A stretch of 64,000 bases of DNA from Balneolaceae bacterium (GTDB lineage: Bacteria; Bacteroidota; Rhodothermia; Balneolales; Balneolaceae), in assembly GCA_017640665.1 (NCBI GenBank), contig JAEPQE010000001.1, forward strand, positions 1,319,262-1,383,261, written 5' to 3'. Under the pieces are notes generated by a model, which made no database searches, was not told the origin of the DNA, and saw nothing but the letters and a program-made list of their open reading frames with translations. The translations under genes were made by a program, and so were the position numbers. This document shows, piece by piece, positions 11,447-59,887 of the stretch (the first letter of the stretch is position 1; every line of letters starts with the position of its first letter).

Positions 11447-13156
11447 TTATATCTGTTTTCTAAAAATCTCGAAATTGATGAGCCAGTTTAGCTGACTGGT
11501 TTTAGAGTAATCCTTACCCTTGTAAAAATCACTTATCAATGCTTGAACCTTAAGTAAGTCATAGTAAGAACATTCCTTAAAGTGCCTGGAGTTGATCGTA
11601 TCGAACATATATTCTTCCAGTGAAAAGAGCATCTTTATGAGAGTTGTTTCATTGAATCTCATTCCAAGTTTACTAGTTGTTTTCATCCAAAGCATGGCAC
11701 TTATGTCTTTCATCCAATACGGATAGCTATCATCACCTTTAACGAGGTTTACTTTCCCTAATTCAGGGGCACTCTTCTTAATAATAGACCGGAATAGGTT
11801 CGCATTAACCCGGTGCTTCTCCGGAGTTAAAAAAATCGTATTCAGAAAAGAAGGTTGAACAAAAGGCATGTAATGGAAAAGCATTTCATCTGAAATTCCT
11901 TGCTTCGGCCCGTACAGGTTTTGAGCACGGGTCCGAATCGTTAATAGATCGAACCAATTGGCAGTTCCAAGTTCTTTTACATGAGGCATTTCCTCAAATT
12001 CATTTTCAAAACTTTGCTTAAATCCCTTCTCCATCTGTTTTATGATGTCATTAGTAAAAATATCAGCCTTGGTTTCTCTGAAATAGGGTAGTAATCGATC
12101 AACGCCCCAATCTTCAATTCGTTTCTTTTCACGAAGCTCAGCACCTCGTAAAAAACGCCTTCGCCCTATTTCTCCAAACGCTCCATCAATCGTGATTTGT
12201 TCTTTTTTACCTAATTGTTGATATCCAAAGTGAGCAGGGAGTGCAGCAATACTTGATGTAAACTGAGATCTGACCGTCAGATCTTCCATCTTGCCAATAA
12301 TTTCCTCAGGAGCTGGAAGAGAAACCGGAAATATCTGATGGTTCTTTCCAAAAGGTTGATTTAATAGCTGAGCGGTTTTAACATCGGGATGAGCAAAATT
12401 ATCAAAAGTGTAGATATCCCATTGGTTAGAATTCTGACCTAGTAATATCCCGAAAAGGACCCTTGAGTCTAACCCGCCTGAAAGTCCAAGGGAAGTATCG
12501 GAGAATGTATTAAGCGCAGCAAGTGAAACAGAGGTCAACACTCGTTCCATATTTGGTGCAGACTCCTTTTTCGGCGAAGGGCTCCATCTTGAGTTCGTAA
12601 AATTATACTCAGAATTTGTAACTATAGCTTTTCCACCCTGAGCTAACCGGTCGATTTTATTAATGAGACACCCGGAAGAAAAAGGAGTGATTCCCAGCCA
12701 ATTGCTCCCGAAATGATGCCAGTTTATAGATGGATTTGGAATAAGTTTAATCATCCAATCCAGTCGGGTTGAGAAAAGAGTGAACTCTTTATTCCGATAG
12801 ATGAATATGTTTCTCATCCCAACCTGGTCAGTAATGAGCTCTACTGTATTCTGGCCCCATTTGGCTATTGCAAAATGACCATCTAACCCGGTTTGAACAT
12901 CAATACCTTCTGTAAAAAAAGAAGCCCATTCTTTTTTACTTAAGACTTTCGATTGCTCTGAATCAATCCCTATTCCACATACAATCCAGCCGGATTCCTG
13001 GTCCGGGTTTGTATGTATATGAGTTGTTTGAGGGTGAACTTCTGAAGCAATAAAAAGAGACTCATTTTGAAAAGAGAAGTCAGAGTTTTGAGTGAGTGCT
13101 TCTATCTTGTTTCTTATCGAAGAATCTTCACCATAAACTCCGATAAAACTACTCAT
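11447..13156 (-). CDS. Asparagine-synthetase-like PP-loop protein lacking the glutaminase cysteine
   Basis: A 569-residue protein with two recognisable parts. An N-terminal Ntn-hydrolase-like region (residues 1-170) has features such as GLDGHFAIAKW and DQVGMRNIFIY, and a C-terminal AMP-forming synthetase domain has the PP-loop LSGGLDSRV (225-233). Asparagine synthetases of the AsnB type need Cys2 as the glutaminase nucleophile. Here the protein begins MSSFIGVYG, so Ser occupies that place and glutaminase activity is not expected. It may use free ammonia or catalyse another ATP-dependent amide or lactam closure, as lasso-peptide and beta-lactam synthetase relatives do. Its start overlaps the TPR lipoprotein gene by eight bases. 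Confidence 0.8.
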   Translation of the reverse strand: MSSFIGVYGEDSSIRNKIEALTQNSDFSFQNESLFIASEVHPQTTHIHTNPDQESGWIVCGIGIDSEQSKVLSKKEWASFFTEGIDVQTGLDGHFAIAKWGQNTVELITDQVGMRNIFIYRNKEFTLFSTRLDWMIKLIPNPSINWHHFGSNWLGITPFSSGCLINKIDRLAQGGKAIVTNSEYNFTNSRWSPSPKKESAPNMERVLTSVSLAALNTFSDTSLGLSGGLDSRVLFGILLGQNSNQWDIYTFDNFAHPDVKTAQLLNQPFGKNHQIFPVSLPAPEEIIGKMEDLTVRSQFTSSIAALPAHFGYQQLGKKEQITIDGAFGEIGRRRFLRGAELREKKRIEDWGVDRLLPYFRETKADIFTNDIIKQMEKGFKQSFENEFEEMPHVKELGTANWFDLLTIRTRAQNLYGPKQGISDEMLFHYMPFVQPSFLNTIFLTPEKHRVNANLFRSIIKKSAPELGKVNLVKGDDSYPYWMKDISAMLWMKTTSKLGMRFNETTLIKMLFSLEEYMFDTINSRHFKECSYYDLLKVQALISDFYKGKDYSKTSQLNWLINFEIFRKQI

Positions 13157-14142: not shown

Positions 14143-15429
14143 TTACAACTGTAAATCCAGCGTAAGCCTTTCCCCATTTCGTAATACCGTCACGGTGGTA
14201 AGCTGGCCTTTTTTGAGGCCGTTCAATGCTTCCATATAACCATAAATGTCTTCAAGGCTTTTACCACCCAATCCAACAATGATATCACCGCTCTCAAGAC
14301 CTGCATTAGCGGCGGCTCCACCGTCATTTGTGCCTGTGATTTTCATCCCTTCTCCATCGTATCCGTAATCAGGGAGAACACCTAAGGTAGGGCCTTCCAG
14401 TCGCATACTTTGTCGTTGTTCGCCCGGCGCTGCAATGAATTCCATGTCAGATTTGTCCAATTCATCCAGTTGAACAATTACACGAACAAGATGATGAAGA
14501 GCCAAGGCCACGCCATTATGGTTTATGTACTCGGTATCGTCAGAAGGTCTGTGATAATCAGAATGCGTATCAGTGAAGTAGTGGAGTACAGGGATATCTT
14601 TGTAATAAAAACTGGTGTGATCGCTGGCTCCGGTTCCATCTTCAACAAGATCAAGGTTCAGGTTTCCTGTGTTCGCAGAATCAACCAAAGCTGTCCACTT
14701 TTCAGCAGTTCCAACTCCAAAAATAATCAGCTTCTTTTCCTCATTCATTCGCCCAATCATATCCATGTTGATCATAGCCAGAGCATTATCCAGATCAACA
14801 GTAGGATTATTTGCATAGTGAGCCGAACCCAATAAGCCCATTTCCTCTCCGGAAAAAGCAAGGAACAGAATGTCGGTTGAAGGACGATTCTCTGAAAAAT
14901 ACTGAGCAAGCTCCAACAAACCGGTTGTACCCGAAGCGTTGTCATCGGCACCATTGTGAATGCGCTTAACCTCTCCACGATACAAAGAACCAAACTCGCC
15001 ATATCCAAGATGGTCGTAATGAGCTCCGATTATGATGAACTCATCAGAATCTCCGGTTCCCTGAAGTAAGCCGGCTACGTTTTTTGAAAGTCTTTTCTCA
15101 CCAGTCGTATCGTCTTCCGATGCATGTGGATTATTCAATAAAGCCGTATTAATGGTGAACTCCTGGAAAAAAGTACGGTCATCTCCGGCCGGTTCCAGAC
15201 CGAAATCCCTGAAATAATCAGCAATATAATTGGCTGCCTTTGCCTCATCTGGAGTTCCTGCTTCACGTCCATTTAGTTCATCCGCAGCTAGAAAAGTAAT
15301 GTGAGTTTCGACATCATCAGGAGTAATATTTACTGATAAGATGACCTCAGGTTCAGATTGTGAAGGAGAGCATGCAAACATTGCGAGGATAAAGAGAGCG
15401 GGAAGAGCAGAATATTTTATGTTAAGCAT
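14143..15429 (-). CDS. M28-family zinc aminopeptidase with C-terminal PDZ domain, lipoprotein
   Basis: A 428-residue protein with lipobox FACSPS (Cys20). The M28 co-catalytic zinc motifs are in order: GAHYDHLGYG, NGADDNASGT, FSGEEMGLLGS, MINMDMIGRM and, near the end of the catalytic domain, HYFTDTHSDYH. The last 80 or so residues form a PDZ domain (MKITGTNDGGAAANAGLESG, then DIIVGLGGK), which can dock substrate C-termini. The expected activity is removal of N-terminal amino acids from peptides in the periplasm. It is the most upstream gene of this minus-strand set, 49 bases ahead of the TPR lipoprotein gene. Confidence 0.94.
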   Translation of the reverse strand: MLNIKYSALPALFILAMFACSPSQSEPEVILSVNITPDDVETHITFLAADELNGREAGTPDEAKAANYIADYFRDFGLEPAGDDRTFFQEFTINTALLNNPHASEDDTTGEKRLSKNVAGLLQGTGDSDEFIIIGAHYDHLGYGEFGSLYRGEVKRIHNGADDNASGTTGLLELAQYFSENRPSTDILFLAFSGEEMGLLGSAHYANNPTVDLDNALAMINMDMIGRMNEEKKLIIFGVGTAEKWTALVDSANTGNLNLDLVEDGTGASDHTSFYYKDIPVLHYFTDTHSDYHRPSDDTEYINHNGVALALHHLVRVIVQLDELDKSDMEFIAAPGEQRQSMRLEGPTLGVLPDYGYDGEGMKITGTNDGGAAANAGLESGDIIVGLGGKSLEDIYGYMEALNGLKKGQLTTVTVLRNGERLTLDLQL

Positions 15430-15761
15430 AGATTTATAGTGTTTTTCGAGAAGGCTTAAAGGTAAGACTGTTTGATGTAAATTTTGTGAAAATTGTGGTT
15501 ACACCAGCGAAGGGTAAACCCTTCGTTTAAAATCACCCAAATTTTATGAAGTTGTCATCCCGGACTTGATCCGGGATCTGTAGGGAGAGAATCTTTGATT
15601 TGGATGAGAACTTTTACAGCGCGGGTTCCTTTACAGATGCTGAACCCTCCGAAGGAGTGCCTTCGGCAAAGTTCAGCAAGACAGCTAAATAATATAGCAG
15701 GAGTCAGAGTGGTCAAAAAAAAGGTACTACCGATTGAAAAACAAACTCCCTACCTTTAATC
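15430..15761. other. Intergenic region between divergent M28 peptidase and TonB receptor
   Basis: No gene is seen here. It holds a REP-like hairpin (15553-15579), a second nested inverted repeat around 15637-15687 (GCTGAAC ... GTTCAGC enclosing CCGAAGG/CCTTCGG), and the probable promoter for the riboswitch transcript. No promoter could be assigned confidently. Confidence 0.6.
15553..15579. repeat. REP-like palindrome (ATCC..GGAT family)
   Basis: Perfect 8-bp stem ATCCCGGA (15557-15564) / TCCGGGAT (15570-15577) with a 5-nt loop, preceded by GTTGTC. The same architecture (GTCATCC, 5-nt loop, GGATCTT-type right end) occurs at 51667-51687, 58161-58181 and 59862-59882. Confidence 0.75.
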
Positions 15762-15850
15762 CATCGGTTAGGGGTGCTTCCTCAAAGTGTGGAGGCTGAG
15801 ATTATACCCTAATACCTGATCCGGGTAATTCCGGCGGAGGAAAACCAATG
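15762..15850 (+). promoter_or_regulatory. TPP (THI-element) riboswitch aptamer
   Basis: The sequence carries the diagnostic conserved blocks of the thiamin pyrophosphate aptamer in order: GGGGTGC at 15771-15777, GGCTGAGA ending at 15801, then ACCC, ACCTGAT at 15814-15820, CCGGGTAATTCCGGCG at 15821-15836 and AGGAAAACC. An outer helix can form between GGTT near 15766-15769 and AACC near 15843-15846. TPP riboswitches sense the thiamin coenzyme and switch off thiamin synthesis or uptake genes. The only downstream gene is a TonB-dependent receptor starting at 15915, which makes that receptor a thiamin-uptake candidate. Confidence 0.95.
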
Positions 15851-15869
15851 CACGTCGCATTTTTGTTGA

Positions 15870-15910
15870 CCTCCTCCCATTAATTAATCACTAATTTTTT
15901 TAATCGGAGG
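15870..15910 (+). promoter_or_regulatory. Riboswitch expression platform: CCTCC anti-Shine-Dalgarno and CGGAGGA ribosome site
   Basis: The pyrimidine run CCTCCTCCC (15870-15878) is complementary to the receptor's Shine-Dalgarno CGGAGGA (15905-15911), four bases from the ATG. The same heptamer occurs in the aptamer at 15835-15841. The pyrimidine run can therefore pair with either copy, giving mutually exclusive structures. The inference is translational control: with TPP bound, the aptamer keeps its own copy and the pyrimidine run hides the ribosome site. Confidence 0.7.
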
Positions 15911-15914
15911 AATA

Positions 15915-18338
15915 ATGTTTACCAAAACATTCTTTTCTACGTCGCTGTGGGCGGCACTTTTTTCACTGTTTATTTTTTCACAAGTTTATTCCCAAAGCAT
16001 TTCCGGGTATGTGTATGATGCAGAGATGAGGGAGGCTCTACCGGGAGCAAATATACTTCAGGTTGGTACAACAAATGGAACGACTGCAAATAGAGAGGGG
16101 TTTTTCGAACTTGATTTAGTTGAGTCTGATAAGTTTACACTTCAAGTATCACACGTTGGGTTTGACACGAAAATAATCGAACTTAACAGTCCGAAAACTT
16201 TCTATGAGATTTACTTAGATGAGTATGCTTGGTCAGAACCATTTGTCGATGGGGAACCTTTCTCTGGAATAATTGTTGAAGCCACTCGTGTAGACGAAAG
16301 CACTCCCTTTACCTACACTAATATTACCCGGGAAGAGCTGGAAGAACGGAATTTAGGTCAGGATGTGCCGTACCTCTTAAACCTGGCCCCATCGGTTGTA
16401 ACGACTTCCGATGCAGGAGCAGGAATTGGCTATACTGGTATTCGGATTCGTGGAGTAGACCCGGCGAGAATCAATGTGACTATAAATGGAATTCCGGTAA
16501 ATGATGCGGAATCACACGGCGTGTTTTGGGTGGATTTACCTGATATCGCTTCATCCATCGAGAATATTCAAATCCAGAGGGGAGTAGGGACGTCAACAAA
16601 TGGTGCGGCAGCTTTCGGAGGTTCCATCAACCTTCAAACAAATACCTCCAGAACAGAAGCCTTTGCTGAAATAAATACCGGAATTGGATCTTTCAACACC
16701 CGAAAAGCCAATATTCAATTGGGCTCAGGTTTGATGGAAAATGGCTGGATGTTTGAGGGGCGTTTGTCTAAGATTTTGTCTGATGGGTACATCGATCGGG
16801 CGAGTGCAGACTTGAATTCGTTCTATCTTTCCGGTTCGAAAAGAGGAGAAAAAAGCATCCTGAGAGCCGATGTGTTTTCAGGGAAGGAAATCACCTATCA
16901 GGCGTGGTATGGAGTGGAAGAGAGCGTTTTGGAAGCCGGAAACCGGACGTTTAACGAAGCCGGTACCGAGAAGTCCGGCGAACCTTATGAGAATCAGGTA
17001 GACAACTACCGGCAGGATTACTATCAGCTTCATTATTCCTATGAACTCGCTTACAACTGGACCGCTAATGCGTCCCTCCACTACACGAGAGGAGAAGGTT
17101 ACTTTGAGGAATACAAAGCCGGAGAAGACCTCAGTGAATACGGCATTACCGCGGACACCTCGAATTCTGATCTTGTCCGTCGTCGCTGGCTGGACAATCA
17201 TTATTACGGTGGAGTGTTTTCTTCTAAGTATGATAGCTATAACTGGGAACTGACTTTTGGTGGAGGGATTCATCAGTATGATGGAGCTCATTTCGGGGAA
17301 GTGATCTGGGCTCGCTTTGCAGGAAATAGCGAAGTTGAAGATCGCTACTACGATAACGATGGCGACAAGCTGGACATGAATGTGTACGCGAAGTTTAACT
17401 ATGAATTAACAGAGGTATTCAATGTGTATGCCGATGCTCAAATCAGGTTTATTAGCTATGATTTTGTTGGAATTGGAAATGATGGAACAGGAAATCTTAT
17501 TCCTATCGATCAAACTGATAAACTCACTTTCTTTAACCCCAAAGCGGGAATTGTTTATCGAAATGTACTAACAGGTGATCGCGCGTTTCTATCTTTTGGT
17601 GTGGCAAGTAAAGAACCTACGCGTGATGAGTATGTGAACTCAACCATTCAAAGTCGACCGGATCACGAAACTCTGTATAATATCGAAGCTGGATATACTA
17701 AAGATATGTCAGACTTTCGGTTTGGAGTGAGCGCATACGGGATGTTCTATGATAATCAACTGGTGCTAACCGGGCAGGTGAACGATGTGGGTGCGTACAT
17801 CCGGGATAATGTAGAGAACAGTTACCGGATTGGGCTTGAGCTTGAAGGTGCGGTTCAACTTACAGATCAACTACAGTGGGCAGCGAATGCCACACTCAGC
17901 CAAAATAAAATAGAGCAGATATCAGAGTTCATCGATGATTACGATAATGGTGGTCAGATAGAGCGTACTTTTGCCGACTCTGATATTGCGTTTTCTCCAA
18001 ACTTGATTTCTAATTCTATCATCAGTTTTACACAGGATGGATTTACAGGCGAACTCACAACAAAATATGTCTCCAAACAATACCTGGATAACACCCAGAA
18101 TGATGACCGGTCTATTGACCCATATCTGGTAAATGACGTGAGGTTGAGCTACAAGTTAAGTGAGATTGGTTTTGCCAAGGCGGTATCAGCAAACTTACTA
18201 ATTAACAATGTTCTCAATCACGAGTACGAAACCAATGGGTATACATTTGGATTTATAGCTGGTGGAGAGCAGCGTTTCAATTATTACTATCCACAAGCCG
18301 GAAGAAACTTCTTGTTTCAAGTAAAGTGGGAGTTTTAA
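15915..18338 (+). CDS. TonB-dependent outer-membrane receptor, probable thiamin importer
   Basis: An 807-residue protein with a signal peptide ending SQVYSQS and a carboxypeptidase-D-like regulatory domain (residues about 27-100: ISGYVYDAEMREALPGAN). A TonB plug follows (GYTGIRIRGVDPARINVTING, IENIQIQRGVGTSTNGAAAFGG), then a 22-strand-type barrel ending in the aromatic KWEF. The function assignment rests on the TPP riboswitch in its leader. Thiamin-regulated TonB receptors are known in Bacteroidota, while the plug and barrel alone do not reveal the ligand. No inner-membrane thiamin transporter or thiamin kinase gene lies next to it. A stem-loop terminator follows, so it is monocistronic. The ATG at 15915 follows a strong CGGAGGA. 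Confidence 0.93.
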   Translation: MFTKTFFSTSLWAALFSLFIFSQVYSQSISGYVYDAEMREALPGANILQVGTTNGTTANREGFFELDLVESDKFTLQVSHVGFDTKIIELNSPKTFYEIYLDEYAWSEPFVDGEPFSGIIVEATRVDESTPFTYTNITREELEERNLGQDVPYLLNLAPSVVTTSDAGAGIGYTGIRIRGVDPARINVTINGIPVNDAESHGVFWVDLPDIASSIENIQIQRGVGTSTNGAAAFGGSINLQTNTSRTEAFAEINTGIGSFNTRKANIQLGSGLMENGWMFEGRLSKILSDGYIDRASADLNSFYLSGSKRGEKSILRADVFSGKEITYQAWYGVEESVLEAGNRTFNEAGTEKSGEPYENQVDNYRQDYYQLHYSYELAYNWTANASLHYTRGEGYFEEYKAGEDLSEYGITADTSNSDLVRRRWLDNHYYGGVFSSKYDSYNWELTFGGGIHQYDGAHFGEVIWARFAGNSEVEDRYYDNDGDKLDMNVYAKFNYELTEVFNVYADAQIRFISYDFVGIGNDGTGNLIPIDQTDKLTFFNPKAGIVYRNVLTGDRAFLSFGVASKEPTRDEYVNSTIQSRPDHETLYNIEAGYTKDMSDFRFGVSAYGMFYDNQLVLTGQVNDVGAYIRDNVENSYRIGLELEGAVQLTDQLQWAANATLSQNKIEQISEFIDDYDNGGQIERTFADSDIAFSPNLISNSIISFTQDGFTGELTTKYVSKQYLDNTQNDDRSIDPYLVNDVRLSYKLSEIGFAKAVSANLLINNVLNHEYETNGYTFGFIAGGEQRFNYYYPQAGRNFLFQVKWEF

Positions 18339-18350
18339 TTAGTTAATTAG

Positions 18351-18396
18351 CACACTCCTAAACCACTTTTAAGAAGAAATTTAGGGGTGTGTTTTT
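18351..18396 (+). terminator. Terminator of the TonB receptor gene
   Basis: CACACTCCTAAA (18351-18362) pairs with TTTAGGGGTGTG (18380-18391), with one G-U pair, across a 17-nt loop and is followed by TTTTT. It overlaps the stop codon of the convergent CotH gene. Confidence 0.8.
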
Positions 18397-20722
18397 ATTT
18401 AATCAGCACCAACCTTCTTGTGATTGATTGGGATTCTGAACTCAAACGATAGAAGTAAATTCCGCTTGAAAGGGAAGAAGCGTCAAAACGGATGGAATGA
18501 GCTCCGGAATTATAACGCGAATCAGCCAGTGTTTGAATGAGCCGTCCTTCCACAGAAAAAACTTCCAGCTTTACGTTGGATGTTTTCTCAAGCTCGAATG
18601 TAATGTTGGTAGATGGATTAAAGGGGTTAGGGTAATTCTGGAGCAACTGAATTTCTGAGGGGTTTTCTTGTCCAGATTCATTAGAATTAATAAGTCCATT
18701 TTGCCCCCCAGGGGTAGGACTATCAAACAATACAAACTCCTCTCCTCCGTCCCCGTTTCTTCCATAAGAAATATCTGTTTGCTGTTCAGAAAAAGAAAAG
18801 GCATCAACCGTTAAGAAGGTTTCTCCTGATAATTCAAAAAGTCCAATATCCTCTCCATCTTTACTAAGGTTGAATGATGCATGAAGTGGCCCTTCCTTTT
18901 CATCGTCATCAACCCAAACCAGCAAATACTCATTTGGCGCTATGGTCGTGTCCGGAAAAGCCCATTTATCCTTTCTGGTAAGATTATCACTTAAATAATA
19001 TCCATTTAGTGAAACCGGAATATCCCCCGGATTGTAAATCTCCAGCCAATCAGCAAAAGCTCCGCCTTCATCAGCGATGGTAGAGCTGTTACTTGCCATG
19101 AGTTCATTGATCACTAATGGTGAAGAGCTTTGCCCGACTTGTTCCTCTAATACATCATCAGGATTGTTTGGAAACCTTTGAGTTTTAGCGGATGGATCGG
19201 TTGCAGTGATGAAGTAGCTAATTATGCCTTCATAGTCTCCGGGAATAAAAGTACCTGTATAAATCCCATCATTAGCCTCCTTATCTCTTCCATTACCATC
19301 ATCAAGCAGATCTATGGTAGTTGTAACGTCGATTGTTACTTCAGCTTTAACGGATAGTTCACTGTTGTCATCAAGAAGTGTTGCTTTGATCGTTAGCGTT
19401 TCCTGATCATTAAAAAAAGTGAAGTTGGTTTTTACTTTTTTTATGATGGGAGTGATATTAACAACGCTCAGCTGTTCCAGGGCGGAAGTAACTCTTGCTG
19501 TTATGTATGGTTTTAAGCCGTAATCAACATGCCCACCAAGCGCAGAATTAAAAGACGCATGATATTCCGCAATGCCATAGTCGTAATCGAGGGTGCGAAA
19601 AGTATCAGCTTCCGCCGCTGTTTCAGTCATAGCTTTTAATCTGTCTATTTCACCAAAAAGAACTTCCTCGTTAAAATATTCCTCTATGATTTTGTTTATG
19701 TAGAAGTGCAGCCGGTTTCTATATTCGGTAACCTCAAGTATTCTGTTGGTAAGTGGCTTATCATCCCGCCCCCAGTTATTTATATCTCGCTCACCCCAGT
19801 CCTGACCAACCCAGTCAATCCCAAAGGTGTTGTCATAATCGTAGGGGATAAATTCCAACCGTTGATCTGAGGTATTAAAATACAAGTAGTAATTATTCTG
19901 ATTGTACCAGTAGTTGTCCCAGTTTCCGGTTAAAACGTCAACAGCCATCCACAATAGGACGCCATCAACATTGATGTAATCTTCTATTTGGTTTATGAAT
20001 TCTGTTTGATCCGAATGTTCCAGAAAGCTGATTAGAGATGCTAAATCAGAATAATCATCGTCTTCTGTATTGGTCTTTAAATCATAAACTCTTCGGTCAG
20101 CCCAATCAGGGCTCCACTTATAATCATTCGGGTTCTCGCTAATGTAAGACAGGTCAGCCGGCCACAGATTTTTATATAAATTACCTTCGTCTCCTTCAAA
20201 TCGGTCTTGCACAAATTCATTATCAATGTGTTCTACATTTATATAGAGCCCGAAATATTCTTCGTTAATGTAAAGCTTAACATGATTTGCTCTGGGCGCA
20301 GGTACATCATAATTCTCAAAAATATCCCAGCTCAGCTTCGACCTGATAATTGAAGGATCGTTATGCTCTCCATTCAGATTCATTTTGTCCAAACCATGAT
20401 ATTCACGCCCTGGAACAAAGGTATTAAATGAAACTTTAAAGGACTTTTTTTGAGAATCTCTGGATGTGTTCCCCCGCAGACGAAATCCTATATTTTCAAC
20501 TGTGTCGCGCTCTTCACCTTTTACAAACACAAAAGTGGCAGGGTATTCGTAATCACTATAGCGGTTATCAAAGTCTAAGATTTCAGCCAGAGAGTCTGGT
20601 TCAATAATGATATAAACTTCAGAAAGAACGGTATCATCAAACACCCATTCTTCAGAGGTCTGTGTAAATCCAATCCGGAAAAAGACCAGCGTAAGTAAAA
20701 AAATAAAGAATGTTTTTTTCAT
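18395..20722 (-). CDS. CotH-kinase-like protein with lamin-tail domain and T9SS sorting domain
   Basis: The ATG at 20722 opens a clear signal peptide (MKKTFFIFLLTLVFF...FTQ), so the 16 residues of an upstream frame extension are dropped. The 775-residue product begins with a CotH spore-coat kinase-like domain (about residues 25-430: GFRLRGNTSRDSQKKSFKVS, LYINVEHIDNEF, FIPYDYDNTFG). A beta-sandwich linker and a lamin-tail domain follow (about 545-660: VINELMASNSS, DWLEIYNPGDIP). The end is a T9SS type A sorting domain (LLQNYPNPFNPSTNITFELE ... RRLVLIK). CotH proteins can phosphorylate proteins; the domain set here predicts a cell-surface or released protein. A second relative is encoded at 40160-43765. 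Confidence 0.92.
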   Translation of the reverse strand: MKKTFFIFLLTLVFFRIGFTQTSEEWVFDDTVLSEVYIIIEPDSLAEILDFDNRYSDYEYPATFVFVKGEERDTVENIGFRLRGNTSRDSQKKSFKVSFNTFVPGREYHGLDKMNLNGEHNDPSIIRSKLSWDIFENYDVPAPRANHVKLYINEEYFGLYINVEHIDNEFVQDRFEGDEGNLYKNLWPADLSYISENPNDYKWSPDWADRRVYDLKTNTEDDDYSDLASLISFLEHSDQTEFINQIEDYINVDGVLLWMAVDVLTGNWDNYWYNQNNYYLYFNTSDQRLEFIPYDYDNTFGIDWVGQDWGERDINNWGRDDKPLTNRILEVTEYRNRLHFYINKIIEEYFNEEVLFGEIDRLKAMTETAAEADTFRTLDYDYGIAEYHASFNSALGGHVDYGLKPYITARVTSALEQLSVVNITPIIKKVKTNFTFFNDQETLTIKATLLDDNSELSVKAEVTIDVTTTIDLLDDGNGRDKEANDGIYTGTFIPGDYEGIISYFITATDPSAKTQRFPNNPDDVLEEQVGQSSSPLVINELMASNSSTIADEGGAFADWLEIYNPGDIPVSLNGYYLSDNLTRKDKWAFPDTTIAPNEYLLVWVDDDEKEGPLHASFNLSKDGEDIGLFELSGETFLTVDAFSFSEQQTDISYGRNGDGGEEFVLFDSPTPGGQNGLINSNESGQENPSEIQLLQNYPNPFNPSTNITFELEKTSNVKLEVFSVEGRLIQTLADSRYNSGAHSIRFDASSLSSGIYFYRLSSESQSITRRLVLIK

Positions 20723-20905
20723 GGATAAAAGGTACAAAATGGTAACAGATAGTGCCTCAATTAATTCCACTTTAGATGAGAAAACACCCTAAGCATTTGA
20801 AACAGATTAAAGCGCCCTACATTCACATATAAGCTTTTCATCACAAAAACATACAATTTATCCCAGCAGTACCGATATTTCCTGATTGAAAATTTCTATG
20901 CTCTT

Positions 20906-59485: not shown

Positions 59486-59887
59486 CTGTCACCCTGAGTG
59501 CCCCAATATAATTTGAGAACTCGGGTTTGTCACGAAGGGTATCAAACGTAGTTTCTTCATGAGTTTGAGTTAATTTGATATCCTTCGCTGAGAGACATTG
59601 ACTTTTCATCGAATTCCGGGAGCTCAGGATGACAAGTCAAGCAACAACTGTCTCCCTTTTGGAGTCCGCCTGTCAGCAGATAAGGGAGACCGATTTCCTG
59701 CCTGCGGGAAATCTCCCGCAGAGATGCCTTCGGCAAGAGAGAGGACCGTGGTGGCTCGGAACCATGTGGTCGCCCGTCCTCTCCCTGAGCCAAAACAAGT
59801 TTTGACTCTGTCCCTCTCCAAAGAGGGACATTCTCTATCTGGAAAATAACTTAACGCTGTCATCCTGAACTCGTTTCAGAATCTTAA
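59486..59887. repeat. Complex intergenic repeat, copy B (about 400 bp)
   Basis: Second copy of the 57769-58186 block in the same orientation. The internal part differs: copy A has a TGCAGGCAGGC-type insert, and copy B has a different palindromic segment around 59690-59790. The right end again carries the CATCCTGAACTCGTTTCAG hairpin (59862-59882). It directly follows the YHYH gene. Confidence 0.85.

Follow-up and report, generated by a model that had tools for sequence, protein, structure and literature searches.

We propose that the receptor gene examined here is controlled by a TPP-sensing translational riboswitch and that its product imports thiamin or a thiamin phosphate into a Balneola-type host that cannot make the thiamin pyrimidine, a reading to which we assign a probability of roughly 0.8. 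The locus lies in a 64,000-nucleotide stretch of DNA from a Balneolaceae bacterium (hereafter the window), and its features are collected in Table 1. The nearest relatives that bear a name are Balneola sp. and Balneolaceae. In the proposed mechanism, (i) when TPP is bound the 3′ core of the aptamer would be held within the aptamer, so that a pyrimidine run further downstream is free to form, with the Shine-Dalgarno (SD) site and an upper stem, a hairpin that blocks initiation; and (ii) when TPP is scarce, GGAGG of the core (15836-15840) would capture the first CCTCC of the run as an anti-sequestor, a pairing that would make the SD about half as costly to open and let the receptor be made. Computation establishes the aptamer, the hairpin with its conservation, the competing pairing, the missing thiC, and the association of this receptor family with TPP elements; we infer that TPP binding switches translation, that the direction is OFF with TPP, and what the substrate is. 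The locus is ordinary in kind and well supported, and gains its interest from its SD context and from a platform that appears to be re-targeted among relatives.

Table 1. Features of the receptor locus (window coordinates).
Feature	Position	Strand	Basis or remark
M28 peptidase with PDZ domain, divergent neighbour	14143..15429	-	Pfam; locus marker in relatives
TPP riboswitch aptamer (RF00059, THI element)	15760..15859	+	cmscan 60.9 bits, full model 1-105
Aptamer 3′ conserved core CGGAGGAA	15835..15842	+	Rfam alignment, folds, repeat finder
Pyrimidine run CCTCCTCCC	15870..15878	+	Shared partner of aptamer core and SD
Sequestor hairpin, TCCTCC/GGAGGA and upper stem	15872..15911	+	Fold below aptamer; compensatory changes in relatives
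Shine-Dalgarno site CGGAGGA	15905..15911	+	-9.5 kcal/mol with 16S tail
TonB-dependent outer-membrane receptor, 807 aa, predicted thiamin receptor (OMthi type, family A)	15915..18338	+	Pfam; orthologues
CotH kinase-like protein with T9SS sorting domain, convergent neighbour	18395..20770	-	Locus marker on the opposite flank

The aptamer matched RF00059 over the full model at a score above the curated gathering cut-off (60.9 versus 54.3 bits, E-value 1.8e-9), with TPP binding predicted, and was the sole TPP element found by a scan of the 3.8 Mb genome. An initial sequence-only reading had anticipated an RF00059 match at 15762-15850, and the one obtained (15760-15859, plus strand) covers that span. 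The positions it gave for CGGAGGA, at 15835-15841 and at the ribosome site, and for the pyrimidine run between them were confirmed in the sequence; a repeat finder returned CGGAGGAA as an exact 8-nt repeat (15835-15842 and 15905-15912). Two of its descriptions were revised. The aptamer had been said to carry a copy of the SD; the repeat is exact, but its upstream member is not an extra SD copy; it is the conserved 3′ core of TPP aptamers (motif CGUAGGGAA, Rfam consensus CGuAGGGAA) in a locally varied form, with a G at the variable position, so that the resemblance to the SD is partly to be expected. A single run had been described as able to pair with either site; both pairings were found, and the run was resolved into two overlapping CCTCC motifs, one per partner, with the first (15870-15874) pairing with the aptamer core and the second, within TCCTCC (15872-15877), with the SD. 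At the receptor gene the GGAGG lies 4 nt from the ATG. Further 5′ of the riboswitch is a perfect palindrome-like sequence, ATCCCGGACTTGATCCGGGAT (15557-15577), which occurs as a single copy in the window and looks like a dispersed repeat.

When the part of the leader below the aptamer was folded, TCCTCC was found to pair with GGAGGA (15906-15911), followed by a C.C mismatch at 15878/15905 and an upper stem of ATTAA (15879-15883) with TTAAT (15900-15904); the pairing of run and SD that had been read from the sequence was thus retained in a hairpin longer than described, with the ATTAA/TTAAT stem on top. Of the 49 leaders in which an SD could be recognised, that of the window among them, 48 had all five SD bases paired and one had four of the five. 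After near-identical leaders of the order were removed, all five bases were paired in 27 of 27, compared with a mean per-leader probability of 0.44 under dinucleotide shuffling, a null raised by the C-rich runs that shuffling preserves. Since kinship also inflates conservation counts of leaders, the compensatory changes weigh more than the pairing counts: (i) in six leaders of one genus GGAGG/CCTCC is changed to AGAGG/CCTCT; and (ii) the upper stem differs between genera (UUAAU/AUUAA, AUAAGA/UCUUAU, and AUUGA/UCAAU), with all variants paired. The folds and the 49-leader comparison together describe a conserved SD hairpin that is mutually exclusive with the aptamer-linked pairing.

The competing pairing was evaluated by the cost of opening the SD, which in the window model was 12.1 kcal/mol with the aptamer sealed and the run paired with the SD, 5.9 kcal/mol when the entire aptamer sequence was free to pair, and 5.0 kcal/mol when only its 3′ core was. 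Sealing the aptamer increased this cost in every one of the 49 leaders, a direction that is partly built in as the proxy allows the free state more partners. The equilibrium probability of an unpaired SD was tried as a measure of switching and set aside as uninformative, since it was nearly equal in the two states. The folding check proposed in the sequence-only reading had a mixed outcome: the opening cost drops in the free state, but the modelled SD is mostly paired in both states, with unpaired fractions of 0.19 free versus 0.17 bound. Because the SD is mostly paired in the free RNA, in this model the switch must act through opening cost, kinetics or co-transcriptional folding and not through full release of the SD. 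Pairing of the aptamer core with the run had a probability of about 0.7 in the free window RNA and 0.16 in a slightly shorter construct, a figure that is hence sensitive to the RNA ends. Compared with shuffles, the core:run duplex was stronger than expected for CGGAGG cores (z -2.1, 10 leaders) and no better than chance for the CGUAGGG core (z +0.3, 17 leaders); when the window core was swapped to the consensus, the duplex weakened from -11.0 to -6.9 kcal/mol. As CGGAGG outperforms its shuffles and CGUAGGG does not, the identity of the heptamers appears, on sequence comparison, to reinforce a general design in particular lineages, at a site that varies among TPP aptamers, and the anti-sequestor half of the mechanism may be different in CGUAGGG lineages. 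The translational-switch design survives this analysis, with the SD pairing conserved and the opening cost lower in the free than in the sealed state, and switching itself is its predicted consequence.

The SD at the base of the hairpin is strong for its genome, in which such sites are scarce. An SD of -7 kcal/mol or below was found for 4.0% of 274 genes, compared with an upstream background of 3.6% (genes from about 460 kb, with starts taken as the first ATG, which somewhat lowers the true SD number), and the receptor SD falls in the top 1.1% of these genes. The same threshold was passed by 87% of the 52 TPP-linked receptors of the order (Balneolales; median -9.3 kcal/mol) and by 0 of 98 TPP-linked receptor genes from Bacteroidia, while other TPP-controlled genes of the order (by eye thiL-, thiD-, and thiM-like, and one unknown) were without strong SDs. 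What is new here is that a genome scarce in SDs belongs to an order in which 87% of these receptors nevertheless have a strong one. A search of 400 kb of the genome for further Rfam riboswitches on which SD retention could be tested returned none, and the literature on SD use that was consulted did not mention Balneolales or provide ribosome data for the order.

An alternative that we consider possible, if doubtful, is that the hairpin occludes the start-codon region, with GGAGGA serving as a pairing partner rather than a ribosome-binding site and the ribosomes of this lineage ignoring SDs. The scarcity of SDs in the genome is in line with this view, as are the ribosomes of Bacteroidia, which keep the 16S tail hidden and leave SDs unread (PMC9976891), the six leaders that weaken the SD to AGAGG with pairing preserved by compensation, and the Chitinophagaceae orthologues described below. 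Against it, 43 of 49 leaders retain GGAGG, placed 3-7 nt from the start, even as the upper stem varies freely, strong SDs prevail among the Balneolales TPP receptors, and the 16S tail CACCUCCUUU that carries the anti-SD is kept in complete genomes of the order. The exact tail pattern was not found in the window's own assembly, probably due to unassembled rRNA, and was present in three relatives.

The orthologues of the SD-less Chitinophagaceae keep the TPP element, with an aptamer core of AGGGAA followed by a UUUCCCU-type run, and their leaders were found to contain complements to the receptor start codon or codons 2-8 (L151, L160, L164, L168, L236, L273, and others). Examples of such leader and coding complements are CCUCUCAUUUUUU with AAAAAAAUGAAGAGG and UGUUCCCAAA with UUUGGGAACA, and the early codons UUGGGAACA form a candidate pair with the leader UGUUCCC. 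Leaders matched their own early coding sequence over a mean longest perfect match of 5.04 versus 4.03 when permuted (P 5e-5, 53 loci), a test limited to Chitinophagaceae and using a stricter match measure than duplex energy; clade structure contributes to this signal, so the complementarity is a lead and not a proof. Over all SD-less loci, the leader:early-CDS duplex energies were moderate (mean z -1.0; own versus foreign P 3e-4), and most loci from Pontibacter and Bacteroidales gave no signal. A new lead is that the Chitinophagaceae leaders, having kept the TPP element, may pair with start or early codons. Returning to SD sequestration, we tentatively suggest, at slightly less than even odds, that Balneolales keep the strong SD as the handle of the switch, that SD-less Chitinophagaceae hide the start or first codons, and that the platform has been re-targeted as initiation rules changed.

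The regulated gene encodes a protein with a signal-peptide-like N terminus, a CarboxypepD_reg_2 domain, and a Plug domain (E-value 6.6e-15) by Pfam. The Pfam barrel model matches only the second receptor family described below (family B), whereas the length and alignment of family A fit a barrel; the product thus has the plug and outer-membrane barrel of a TonB-dependent receptor. The gene stands alone between the divergent M28 peptidase, which is not part of the switch, and the convergent CotH-like protein. Elsewhere in the window were found (i) a strong match to whalefall-1, an Rfam small RNA of unknown function (59776-59831, minus strand, 70.3 bits versus a cut-off of 37); and (ii) a 569-aa protein (11447-13156, minus strand) that resembles asparagine-synthetase-type enzymes, with a PP-loop-like motif SGGLDSR and no Pfam match.

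Examination of thiamin metabolism pointed to a need for external supply. The thiC gene was absent from the window's genome and found in 0 of 39 members of the order, compared with 13 of 14 control genomes, whereas thiamin pyrophosphokinase (TPK) was present in 35 of the 39, the window's genome among them. ThiL was also present in this genome, no ThiE scored above the cut-off, and a PnuC/PnuT-type transporter was encoded; PnuC-family transporters occur in 11 of 39 members of the order, and in two relatives the gene adjoins TPK, which suggests PnuT. Of 129 genomes of the order, counting the window's own, 115 carry a TPP element, and all 52 receptor genes examined there have one upstream. Receptor orthologues of about 39-49% identity were found across Bacteroidota, and outside the order the TPP element lay upstream in 35 of 59 scanned loci; in Pedobacter and Daejeonella (L131, L132, L133, L137, and L143) no match reaching the gathering threshold was obtained in the 1.5 kb upstream. 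The receptor thus lies, like many of its orthologues, under a TPP element where external thiamin is needed, which places it in the OMthi type with thiamin transport as its predicted function. The thiamin importer first proposed from the sequence is supported by the thiC, TPK, and orthologue data, and the product is probably a vitamin B1 importer, a substrate deduced from this context.

That the receptor imports another compound, such as a thiamin precursor or a cobalamin-like ligand, with TPP control being secondary, is unlikely in our estimation. The best named family was a B12 receptor model, matched far below its cut-off (51.9 versus 599.7); ThiL could make thiamin monophosphate usable, and the same leader precedes receptor bodies of two distant kinds. 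However, a cell that lacks thiC and a credible ThiE and has TPK needs thiamin or a phosphate of it, and the Bacteroides receptor BT2390 offers a precedent (PMC5613172). Transcriptional attenuation, in which the TPP-bound leader would terminate transcription, is highly improbable: although some other TPP leaders of the order are attenuator-like (a hairpin then a T-run, e.g., the thiM-type leader L114), a terminator scan of 15430-15950 returned no terminator-like site, the U-rich stretch sits inside the hairpin loop rather than 3′ of a stem, and the relatives' leaders have the SD hairpin instead. Four TPP elements of genus g3 (L056, L060, L063, and L067) are possible attenuators: after their core, CGAAAGGAAA, come a hairpin and a T-run, and the same strand has no nearby downstream ORF of 100 aa.

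A second family of TonB receptors (family B), about 30% identical to that of the window, was found under 9 of 52 leaders, at loci from several genera (L045 of G040, L074 of G019, L048, L051, L054, L072, L078, L086, and L087). When genomes G019 and G020 were aligned, DNA identity was about 80-97% in the flanking genes, 88-100% in the leader, and about 45% in the receptor body, the last being comparable to unrelated sequence in such an alignment. The same exchange pattern was apparent between the window and G040 of the same genus, in which the neighboring proteins are 85% and 68% identical. By these alignments, two receptor families replace each other in place beneath nearly identical TPP leaders while the switch and signal-peptide region stay, which is also new here. 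Perhaps the replacement helps to evade phages or bacteriocins, or alters the substrate taken up.

The locus bears on translational control by riboswitches in bacteria without SD usage, as one receptor is found with two testable candidate platforms: hiding of the SD in an SD-scarce order and hiding of start or early codons in SD-less relatives. The locus is in addition a natural test of whether Balneolales ribosomes read SDs. In the thiM TPP riboswitch of Escherichia coli, the SD is sequestered when TPP is bound, with aptamer and SD in competition for an anti-SD element. The mechanism proposed here shares this SD sequestration and competing element, and differs in that thiM is a salvage kinase rather than a receptor and in the sequence of the platform. 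The TPP-controlled receptor system is itself of a known kind, represented by OMthi (BT2390) of Bacteroides thetaiotaomicron, which lies behind a TPP riboswitch and whose loss makes a biosynthesis mutant need more thiamin (PMC5613172). Both loci have a TPP aptamer before a TonB-dependent receptor involved, or here predicted to be involved, in thiamin uptake (PMC5613172; PMC7366714). The BT2390 mRNA level is unchanged by thiamin (PMC5613172), which is compatible with translational control; however, Bacteroides is without SD sites, whereas a strong one would be the target at the present locus. The TPP riboswitches of Bacteroides are reported in bioRxiv 867226, as cited in PMC7366714, to work at the level of transcription or translation, and the functioning of TPP riboswitches in Bacteroidetes has been described as uncertain (PMC5613172). 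A further parallel is found in rpsU (bS21) of Flavobacteriales, where a lineage otherwise lacking SDs likewise retains a strong one at a regulated gene; in Flavobacterium johnsoniae, rpsU is the only gene with an obvious SD, which is used in autoregulation (PMC9976891). The two differ in the reader of the site, as the rpsU SD is read by bS21-free ribosomes (PMC9976891) while that of the window would be hidden by a riboswitch.
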